Shown here in pieces: positions 9,939-19,932 of a stretch of 34,151 nt of DNA. Every line of letters starts with the position of its first letter. Position 1 is the first letter of the stretch. Made by a program: the position numbers and the translations under genes. Under the pieces are notes generated by a model, which saw only the letters and a program-made list of their open reading frames with translations, made no database searches and was not told the origin of the DNA. Source of the DNA: an uncultured Saprospiraceae bacterium. Its GTDB lineage: Bacteria; Bacteroidota; Bacteroidia; Chitinophagales; Saprospiraceae. The DNA lies in contig CAKZSH010000284.1 of assembly GCA_937918905.1 (NCBI GenBank), forward strand, positions 1 to 34,151, read 5' to 3'.

Positions 9939-10841
9939 TCACCTTGTGAATAACTCAATCAACTTAAAATTTTTCAACTCCTCCCTCGTCCTTTCAAAAT
10001 CAAAAGTAATTCCCAGTAAAAAACCTCCTCCTCCTGCACCACATAATTTTAATTTAAAAAAATCACTTGCCAATCCATCCAACCATATTGCTCGGAAATC
10101 AGTTGGAATCATTTCTGAGAAATATTTGAATTGGAAATGCCCTATGTCGTGTACTTTTCCAAACAATACATTTACATTTTGAGATAAAAAAGCAGCAATG
10201 GCTTCATCCACATCTGGAATGTACTCTGCTTGAAGTCGAGAAAAATAATCAAGGTTTTTACATTTGTCTAAAAAGATATTGACGAAGGGGCCAGTTTGTC
10301 GAGGAATTTTTGTGTCTAGTAAAAAGAGTTGATAATTATTTTTTTGTTGAAAATCTACGATAGAAATTTTTTCTTTTGATTCTAATAATAATGTTTTTTC
10401 TATAAAACAAATTAAAGGGTCAGTCCCTGAACTTGAGCCATGAAAAAAACTTTCTAATTGAGCAAATATTTTTTTAAATGTTAAAAAATTGCTTTCTTTT
10501 TTTTCTAATTTATTTTTACAAAAAACATCATAAACCGCAGCACACAATGCGCCCGAACTACCCACACCATAACCTGTTGGAATATTAGAATCAAAGAAAA
10601 GACCTTTCGCTAATTCTTTTTTGAAGTGAGCAATATCTAACTCGCAAAGCAGCTCATTTTTATTTTGTAATACTTCCAAATGATTTGCAAATGCAGGCAA
10701 TTCCATTTGAACTTTCTCAAAGTCTCGATTAGTATTTTTCCAACTTCCATAGAAATGGGGTAAAGGCATCGCCAATGCTTGCGAACCTTTGATAATGGAG
10801 TGTTCTCCGAAAAGTAAAAGTTTGGAAGTATATTGTTTCAT
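9939..10841 (-). CDS. GHMP kinase (mevalonate kinase-like)
   Basis: ORF 300 aa; KLLLFGEHSIIKGSQALAMPL, IPTGYGVGSSGALCAAVYD, LCGAGGGGFLLGI. Confidence 0.9.
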   Translation of the reverse strand: MKQYTSKLLLFGEHSIIKGSQALAMPLPHFYGSWKNTNRDFEKVQMELPAFANHLEVLQNKNELLCELDIAHFKKELAKGLFFDSNIPTGYGVGSSGALCAAVYDVFCKNKLEKKESNFLTFKKIFAQLESFFHGSSSGTDPLICFIEKTLLLESKEKISIVDFQQKNNYQLFLLDTKIPRQTGPFVNIFLDKCKNLDYFSRLQAEYIPDVDEAIAAFLSQNVNVLFGKVHDIGHFQFKYFSEMIPTDFRAIWLDGLASDFFKLKLCGAGGGGFLLGITFDFERTREELKNFKLIELFTR

Positions 10842-11350
10842 TTTTGTAATAACAAATCGCTGTAAGAATTTTCAATTAAATCATTTTCTTCAATGCCTAA
10901 CAAATTTAAATAAAATTGGCATTGCTCCATCAGTTTTTCTTCGCCAAGTCTACCATCCGAATCAATCGCTTCGATCTCCATAAAATTACCCAAATCTGTA
11001 ACTTCGTCCACATGAAATTTTACATTATCAATAAAATAAATTGAACGCAACTTATCCACTACAACGAGCACTCCATTGGCTTGAGTTAACAATTGTTTTA
11101 ATGAAGAGTCAGGATGTGGGTGATACAAAACATAATCTGATTTTTTAGGGCCAGCTTGATTAGGGCGATTGTATTGAATCAAAGCCGTTTCAATATTTCC
11201 TTCTCGCAATTTCATTCTCCCATTGGGTACTTTAAAGTAAGTATCAATTTGATGATCGACTCCTTTAAAATCCGCTTGATGAGATTTTAGAATTTCTTTG
11301 ATGGTAACAGGGTCGTTACATTTTGCTTTAATTTCAATATTAAGTGCCAT
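10838..11350 (-). CDS. CYTH-domain protein (class IV adenylate cyclase / ThTPase-like)
   Basis: ORF 170 aa; N-terminal IEIKAK (ExExK), RMKLREGN, HVDEVTDLGNFMEIEAID. ATGA overlap with the downstream kinase gene. Confidence 0.88.
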   Translation of the reverse strand: MALNIEIKAKCNDPVTIKEILKSHQADFKGVDHQIDTYFKVPNGRMKLREGNIETALIQYNRPNQAGPKKSDYVLYHPHPDSSLKQLLTQANGVLVVVDKLRSIYFIDNVKFHVDEVTDLGNFMEIEAIDSDGRLGEEKLMEQCQFYLNLLGIEENDLIENSYSDLLLQK

Positions 11351-17521: not shown

Positions 17522-18604
17522 TCAATCTTCATTTTTCCATATTGCACCGTATTCTTCTACCAAAATATTATCATAATCGTCTGCTTTCTGGAAAAGGTAT
17601 TTAAATAACTTCGATCCAGTATCCATATTTAAATATCTGTCATAGATCAAAAGTGATAATACAATATCATTCTCTTTAATACTAAAGGTCAGTCCTTCAA
17701 TTTCATAATTTTGTTTCAAAAGGTATTCGTAGAGGGGTTTTATATTTTCTTTAGGGAGCAAACAGAGAGAAGCATCTCCCATGATAAGTCCTGTTTTTTC
17801 GTGATATGAAATATTAATAGTTGCACTTCCTTGAATAATTTCCCAATTATTAGGACCAATTCTAGATAACCCTACATTATGTCCCATTTTATTGAGTAAT
17901 TCTTCAATCGTTTTGGATACTCCCAATGCTTCGTATTCTTCGACTTCTGAAGGCAATTGCACTTTGGCTCCACAATGAGGACAGTAGCCATTATCTATTG
18001 TTTTTTCAAAAACGATATTGGAACATGAACCACAGCGAACTCCAATTTGGTTATCTGTTGCCTGAAATTCTTCAATCGCTTTTTGCAAATAAGAGATTGG
18101 CAATGAAAAACCAACATTATTTCCATTTTGGATGACAAAAGTATTGACCCCTACGATTTCTCCTTTTTGATTAATTAAAGGCCCGCCACTATTTCCTGGA
18201 TTAAGTGCAGCATCATGTTGGATATAAACCAAATCATTTTTTTCTTCCTCTACATTAGAGACAATGCCTTGAGTAGCAGAATATTTTAATCCAAAAGGAT
18301 GACCTGCTGCAATGACGGCTTCGCCTCGTTCCATAGTTCCACCATTAAATATTTTCGCTTCGGGAGCTTCTATAACATTAGGAATTTGTAAAAAGGCAAG
18401 ATCGTGTCTGACATCAGTAAAAATCACTTTAGTCATTTGTTTTTCAAATCCTTCTCCATTGATGACCACTTCTTGATTACCTCTAACCACATGTTCATTA
18501 GTAATAATCAAGTTAGCATTTTTCAAATAAAAACCAGTCCCTGTGCTATAGGGAGTAGCAATTTGAATAATGATGTTTTTATATAAATTGATTATTTCTT
18601 TCAT
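17522..18604 (-). CDS. cytoplasmic trypsin-like (HtrA-type) serine protease with zinc ribbon and C-terminal YbjN/chaperone-like domain
   Basis: ORF 360 aa; triad motifs IITNEHVV, RHDLAFLQI, NPGNSGGPLIN; CxxC-x14-CxxC (CGSCSNIVFEKTIDNGYCPHC); no signal peptide. Confidence 0.85.
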   Translation of the reverse strand: MKEIINLYKNIIIQIATPYSTGTGFYLKNANLIITNEHVVRGNQEVVINGEGFEKQMTKVIFTDVRHDLAFLQIPNVIEAPEAKIFNGGTMERGEAVIAAGHPFGLKYSATQGIVSNVEEEKNDLVYIQHDAALNPGNSGGPLINQKGEIVGVNTFVIQNGNNVGFSLPISYLQKAIEEFQATDNQIGVRCGSCSNIVFEKTIDNGYCPHCGAKVQLPSEVEEYEALGVSKTIEELLNKMGHNVGLSRIGPNNWEIIQGSATINISYHEKTGLIMGDASLCLLPKENIKPLYEYLLKQNYEIEGLTFSIKENDIVLSLLIYDRYLNMDTGSKLFKYLFQKADDYDNILVEEYGAIWKNED

Positions 18605-19932
18605 GCTGTTTTCGTCAAATCTAATTTCTTAACCATGAGTAAAAAGGATTTTGCAAAATTGGTCAAAGTATCAAATTGTAAAAGATTTTTATCAGGGTCC
18701 ATTTTGCTATACAAAGTTTCATTATTTTTTACAATGTCTCGAATGGCTCGTTTGATGGCTTTTTTGTCAAAAACCTTTTTCTCGGAATCATAATAATTCA
18801 AAGTGTAGCCAAGATTTTTAAAATAATCAGCTTCTAAAATTTGATAATACAAATGGAATAACTCTCGATCAGGTCGTGGTACTGCAAAATTAAACATACA
18901 ATAACCAACGATATATCCAGGAATCGCGATGGCAATATGATTATACCCATTTTGATTATACCAATCCATATTATGCAATTCGCCATCAATAAAACCAATT
19001 ACTCGATCATGATTGACAGGCTTGGTAATCCCAAATGTTGACTTGGTGAGGTACATTTCTTTGAAAAATTCTTCCTTTGGTCGATCAATTAATTTTTTTA
19101 ATTCTTTTCGAATAAAAATATTTTTTTGAGCCGTATTTTTCCCATCAGTCGTAAAATAGATGCGGTGAATACGTTCTAAAGTTTCCATCATAAACCCTTC
19201 TGGCTTTGTCAAGTAATCAAGTTTATAACTCAAGTTTAACAATATATATGCATATCCTCCTGGGTATTGATCTATGTTTGGTTTTCCACTTTCCATAGCA
19301 ATTAATGCCTCCTTGATTGCATGAGTCAGATAATTATATTTAACCTCTTTTTCGGGTATTGGAATCTGAATCAAATGGCTAATATCAACAGGTTCAAGCA
19401 TTCTAAATTCATCAATTAGAATATCATCCAATTTATCAGCATTAGTCGTTAATTCTTTAAGTGCGTAATACAATTTGTAAGGAGAACCATCTAAAACATA
19501 GGTGTCGAATCGAATTGTAATATTATTGTTATTATCAATTGCAAATCGAGTATATCGAAGAGAAAAATTCCGCTCCAACAATCGACGCATAAATCCGATA
19601 TTGAGGGTATCTGTTTTTGCAACTTTGGCTTCGATAGTTACTTTATTGGCATCTGCCATGCCTGTTGCTTTCTTAGAACCCTGATAAACTTCAAAATGGA
19701 TTTTTCCACCTTCTTCTTTCCAAATTACATTATCTTCATAATTGTCTCGGAGGTAAGTGAAAAATTCAAGGTAGGAGGAAAGGTATTGTTCTTTTTCAAA
19801 TAAATCCAAAGCTTTATCCCAAGAGTCGTACTGACTCGCGACTTTGTAGGAATCCGTATAACGTCCAAAACTAATATTCGGTTGTGGCTCCTTCTTCGTT
19901 CCGCCTCCAAAAAGATATTCAAAAAAGCTCAT
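18601..19932 (-). CDS. hypothetical protein, translationally coupled to the downstream protease
   Basis: ORF 443 aa; 4-nt ATGA overlap with 17522..18604; no recognised family. Confidence 0.75.
   Translation of the reverse strand: MSFFEYLFGGGTKKEPQPNISFGRYTDSYKVASQYDSWDKALDLFEKEQYLSSYLEFFTYLRDNYEDNVIWKEEGGKIHFEVYQGSKKATGMADANKVTIEAKVAKTDTLNIGFMRRLLERNFSLRYTRFAIDNNNNITIRFDTYVLDGSPYKLYYALKELTTNADKLDDILIDEFRMLEPVDISHLIQIPIPEKEVKYNYLTHAIKEALIAMESGKPNIDQYPGGYAYILLNLSYKLDYLTKPEGFMMETLERIHRIYFTTDGKNTAQKNIFIRKELKKLIDRPKEEFFKEMYLTKSTFGITKPVNHDRVIGFIDGELHNMDWYNQNGYNHIAIAIPGYIVGYCMFNFAVPRPDRELFHLYYQILEADYFKNLGYTLNYYDSEKKVFDKKAIKRAIRDIVKNNETLYSKMDPDKNLLQFDTLTNFAKSFLLMVKKLDLTKTA

Follow-up and report, generated by a model that had tools for sequence, protein, structure and literature searches.

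Serine proteases of the HtrA/Do family (DegP, DegQ, DegS, MucD) carry an export signal and one or two C-terminal PDZ domains. Other trypsin-like proteases are found in two-gene units, as in the Hachiman/AVAST nuclease-protease pairs, where the partner is encoded upstream of the protease (PMC12799240), and PspA-CesT/Tir dyads of phage-shock systems have been proposed to help assemble sub-membrane complexes (PMC11237479). Here we describe a gene pair from a 34-kb contig (CAKZSH010000284.1, 34,151 nucleotides, analysed whole and called the window below), part of the 5.5-Mb genome of an uncultured Saprospiraceae bacterium; the closest relatives of this stretch are Saprospiraceae metagenome assemblies. 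The first gene encodes a partner protein of 443 amino acids (P0002; 18601..19932) and the second a protease of 360 (P0001; 17522..18604), both on the minus strand, as are all features of the pair given below. The two open reading frames (ORFs) overlap by 4 bp at an ATGA start/stop junction (18601..18604), and their base composition is ordinary for the window. As argued below, the conserved core of this pair appears to consist of the partner and of a TY (YbjN/CesT-like) domain present in both proteins, with the protease as a frequent yet dispensable module.

P0001 opens with an HtrA-type trypsin-like protease domain (residues 10-183; 18056..18577) with the triad H38/D68/S139 and a GNSGGP motif, followed by a CxxC...CxxC zinc ribbon (residues 188-215; 17960..18043) and a TY domain (residues 228-352; 17549..17923). 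For the protease domain, Trypsin_2 gave E 2.9e-28 and the HtrA/Do family E 5.5e-43, the latter match staying under the family cut-off (degP_htrA_DO, 147.5 bits against 416.2 bits). In the PDB, MucD, DegQ and DegS match it in sequence and fold. The three catalytic residues and the four cysteines of the ribbon (C191/C194/C208/C211) are invariant in 21 aligned homologues. Read by eye, the N-terminus (MKEIINLYKNIIIQIATPYS) shows no signal peptide and the protease fold begins at once; PDZ models gave no match in a Pfam profile search, and the TY domain, recognized by the topology of the AlphaFold2 model (pLDDT 90, pTM 0.86) and by homology to the partner, occupies the PDZ position. An earlier note on this DNA, made from the sequence without database searches, had described just such an overlapping two-gene unit with a cytoplasmic protease, its triad region intact and followed by a zinc ribbon and a YbjN or secretion-chaperone-like C-terminus, and that description holds throughout. 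At the 3' ends of two protease genes of subgroup B1 (L079, L080) an added C-terminal SHOCT domain was found (E 1.5e-7 and 1.4e-5, the second just under the Pfam cut-off), which suggests a further assembly module in these proteins.

The partner was modelled with similar scores (pLDDT 91, pTM 0.89) as a short N-terminal helix of low confidence, a TY domain (residues 32-178; 19399..19839) for which Foldseek returns 2plg, ExsC, CesT, AmyR and YbjN, and an all-helical C-terminal half (residues 190-435; 18628..19365). Just ahead of the TY domain lies the segment FGRYTDSYK (19843..19869), whose G23 and R24 are invariant in the alignment of canonical partners. No family of Pfam, NCBIfam or PADLOC matches P0002 at cut-off; TY-Chap1 scores 11.4 bits against a Pfam cut-off of 27, and the same model matches 22 of 39 members of the partner family at E < 0.1 (best E 2.3e-4). 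For the helical half, the listed PDB matches either belong to the TY type or lack credibility, and viral libraries gave nothing confident. The TY domains of P0001 and P0002, C-terminal in one and N-terminal in the other, are homologous by profile-profile comparison (E 5e-7), and a profile of the zinc-ribbon/TY region of the protease retrieves the partner with E values down to 4.6e-11, in six genomes. The two domains thus share a common ancestry, which bears out the surmise of the earlier note that the N-terminal part of the partner is a related fold. The note had recognized no family for this protein, and the searches agree with it; the known housekeeping family that would have undone its proposal was not among the matches. 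Stand-alone TY genes were also seen elsewhere: one, detected by the TY profile of the protease, directly follows a PspA-like gene identified by eye (L114:7422-8621, genome G341; N-terminus MGLFSRIADVF), an arrangement that agrees with the published PspA-CesT/Tir association (PMC11237479), and another (L113:8081-8527) sits beside a short gene that looks by eye like a GNAT acetyltransferase.

The pairing of both genes goes far beyond chance. Among 150 Saprospiraceae genomes (all samples used for co-occurrence lie within Bacteroidota) the partner was found in 115 and a full-length protease in 108; 106 hold both, 9 only the partner, 2 only the protease and 33 neither. The corresponding Fisher odds ratio of 194 is inflated by genome relatedness, as are the p-values. 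Perfect agreement in two separate samples, which share a few genomes, is a stronger argument than these p-values: in a sample of the phylum the 13 genomes (of 297) with one gene are precisely those with the other (adjacent in 11), and in another family the two genes of a divergent subfamily B coincide just as exactly, in 10 genomes of 201 and always adjacent. Three Saprospiraceae carry a canonical and a B pair together. The pair is therefore conserved together, one of the two points on which the earlier note had staked its idea. Linkage is looser, since only 63 of the 106 Saprospiraceae pairs are adjacent, always in the order partner then protease on one strand, and 43 are unlinked; in several of the latter genomes it is apparently the partner that moved, because the protease is still found next to PorP/SprF and bactofilin.

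The exceptions to co-occurrence reveal which part of the pair is retained. In five of the nine Saprospiraceae with a partner and no full-length protease, the gene immediately downstream of the partner encodes a TY companion; in four of them (G066, G047, G113, G036) it is a stand-alone TY protein of 131-159 amino acids with no protease domain, and in the fifth (G105) a degenerate protease region followed by zinc ribbon and TY domain. Among the others, two genomes are less than 90% complete (G008, G065), one has its partner as a contig-end fragment (G111) and one is an unexplained exception (G015). A survey of 133 protease homologues gave a similar picture: 117 keep His-Asp-Ser, 11 have substituted catalytic residues, in 4 the protease domain is missing or degenerate, and 1 is a contig-end fragment. 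With the companion in G036, which falls below the threshold of this survey and which we count as a fifth missing or degenerate protease domain, catalysis has been lost in 16 genes, in 11 by substitution and in 5 by degeneration or deletion of the domain. In two further cases (G028, G022) the triad letters are kept and the serine motif is degraded.

All 16 genes without catalysis keep the TY domain, and the partner is present in every genome that was checked for it. The four zinc-ribbon cysteines are kept in all 117 homologues with an intact triad and in all 11 with a substituted one. Ten of these 11 sit in genomes with a partner; for the eleventh (G059c), an additional copy that is unlinked, no partner of its own was identified. 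The ten are 36% identical to P0001 in the protease domain and 54% in the zinc ribbon/TY region, whereas intact genes reach 53% and 55%, respectively (p 8e-6 for the contrast). On a tree of the TY region 11 changes are needed, at least 6 of them forced by well-supported branches, the placement of long branches being unsure; catalysis was consequently lost independently at least 6 times, and probably 11. This natural, repeated loss acts as a built-in mutagenesis that tells us what selection preserves in the pair.

These losses bear on two explanations centred on proteolysis. If the partner only regulated the protease, for example as a cap over its active site, the tight pairing would be accounted for, and the homologous domains could dimerise, but the partner is also retained alongside missing or inactive protease domains, and we regard this explanation as very improbable. 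The protease might instead cleave and activate the partner, as substrate or proenzyme, in the manner of nuclease-protease defence pairs. The upstream position of the partner gene, as in the pairs of PMC12799240, the co-occurrence and the intact triad of 117 of the 133 homologues are in line with this; however, no effector or enzyme domain was recognized in the partner with Pfam, NCBIfam, PADLOC or Foldseek, no fusion to a defence protein was seen, and the partner outlived at least six losses of catalysis, which leaves this proposal improbable as well. For the same reason the term sensor-protease pair, used in the earlier note, stands with regard to the co-conserved pair and fails in its emphasis on proteolysis, given that catalysis or the whole protease domain has been lost repeatedly while TY domain, partner and, mostly, zinc ribbon are kept.

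Most partners carry a terminal motif that points to the membrane. In P0002 it is the N-terminal amphipathic sequence MSFFEYLFGG (19903..19932; consensus MxxFDRLFG), which resembles the membrane-targeting sequence of E. coli MinD, KGFLKRLFGG (PMC5471200). Of 39 partners, 34 contain a strict version of the pattern, compared with 5 of 920 other ORFs, and the mean hydrophobic moment of the partner motif is 0.55 against 0.33. The motif is N-terminal in canonical partners, and in subgroup B1 a motif of the type KKGFFSKLFN is C-terminal. Judging from these sequences, most partners would bind the membrane.

Taking these results together, we favour, without granting it quite an even chance, a pair that acts like a chaperone close to the membrane and has an optional protease serving the quality control of its clients. 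P0001 and P0002 would assemble into a heteromeric complex by way of their homologous TY domains, and the amphipathic helix of the partner would anchor it to the cytoplasmic membrane from the inside. The helical domain of the partner may be the part that binds a client or scaffold, and the second subunit would supply the zinc ribbon along with, in most cases, a cytoplasmic HtrA-type protease with TY in place of PDZ. Such a complex could recognize proteins near the membrane by segments that are exposed or unfolded, and an active protease would clip these. A more specific proposal, which we put forward tentatively, is that this is an undescribed Bacteroidota complex, in which the TY hetero-pair is the conserved machine, tethered by an N- or a C-terminal motif depending on the branch, and the HtrA module is optional, often turned into a pseudoprotease or deleted.

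Several observations weigh against a chaperone-like membrane complex of this kind. The amphipathic motif is absent from subgroup B2 and from two partners outside Saprospiraceae (L070, L071), so tethering is not universal. The pair is missing from many complete genomes and hence cannot be a universal quality-control system. Two genomes that are 99% complete break the pairing, G132 with a protease and no partner detected, and G015 with a partner and neither protease nor TY companion detected. Finally, the correlation of the partner and protease distance matrices (mirror-tree, r 0.82; controls span 0.33 to 0.95) is no higher than that of some unrelated neighbours and so carries little information.

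The genes around the pair speak to two further explanations. Pairs of subgroup B2 lie in a recurrent cluster (L131, L133, L134, L135, L136, L073) with genes for a TPR histidine kinase, a LytTR response regulator, lipoproteins, a cadherin-domain protein, LemA, DUF1266 and DUF3137. Kinase, regulator, LemA and both DUF proteins would suit a regulatory partner switch, in which the TY domains sequester a regulator or each other, as in ExsC/ExsE or YbjN, with proteolysis ending the signal and no general chaperoning; so would the fold similarity of the partner to the regulators ExsC and YbjN/AmyR. Against it, most lineages have no conserved regulator beside the pair, and repeated loss of the protease would disrupt the step that ends the signal, and we consider such a switch unlikely.

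In the window the neighbours of the pair (GSCFA, PorP/SprF, bactofilin, MurF-alanine racemase, OmpH and others) are cell-envelope and housekeeping genes; a GHMP-kinase-like and a CYTH-domain gene at 9939-11350 (minus strand), which overlap by a few bases, are a possible functional pair of their own. Beyond the family of the window, what the loci share is the pair, amid varying flanking genes; in other families the flanks are mostly housekeeping (RecQ, SIS/CBS, TatC, DnaN and similar), and PADLOC matches are few and isolated among 73 neighbours, among them RecQ-like helicases scored as DpdF, a single AbiU and a single PycC. The defence islands that the earlier note had asked about are thus not what these neighbourhoods look like, and its suggestion of an immunity module is not supported: no PADLOC model matches the partner, no homologues of the pair were found in the plasmids, phages and viral contigs searched, and most Saprospiraceae have the pair. 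Trypsin-like cytoplasmic proteases are frequent in conflict systems, TY-Chap domains are known from ADP-ribose conflict systems (PMC9503650) and the distribution in the other family is patchy, all of which would fit an immunity or stress-death module. A match of the protease to the RT-Protease model of PADLOC could be added to these points, but we rejected it as a sign of defence because it reflects the trypsin fold alone. On balance we take this to be the least likely of the explanations weighed here. A role in stress or secretion, also raised in the note, is possible.

Compared with known systems, P0001 has its best sequence and structure matches in HtrA/Do proteases, with which it shares the protease fold, the His-Asp-Ser triad and GNSGGP; unlike them, it has neither PDZ domain nor export signal, carries zinc ribbon and TY domain instead, has an obligate-like partner and belongs to a family with repeated loss of catalysis. 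MamO, a magnetosome protein presented as an HtrA-like repurposed serine protease in PMC4794232, matches P0001 weakly with its model, through the protease domain. From the Hachiman/AVAST pairs, which likewise combine a trypsin-like protease with an upstream partner in a two-gene unit, the locus differs in having a partner that is no nuclease of the MBL type and that survives without the protease. Fold and topology agree with TY-chaperones, YbjN and CesT (PF22551, PF10722, CesT_Tir; Foldseek 2plg, ExsC, CesT, YbjN), but the domain is here fused to a protease in P0001 or to a helical domain in P0002, falls below the Pfam cut-off and, unlike CesT-type secretion chaperones, has no secretion system alongside. 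The arrangement of an HtrA protease with a secretion-type chaperone was not found in the libraries or open-access literature searched, and the pair offers a concrete way to test whether CesT/YbjN-like domains, away from secretion systems, serve to bind clients for proteolysis in the cytoplasm close to the membrane. The PspA-CesT/Tir dyads differ in that no PspA is found in the pair or among the genes of the window, and a single protein holds both motif and TY domain; what they have in common with the pair is a CesT/Tir-type domain together with an amphipathic membrane-binding protein, and the TY relative in L114 adjoins PspA itself.
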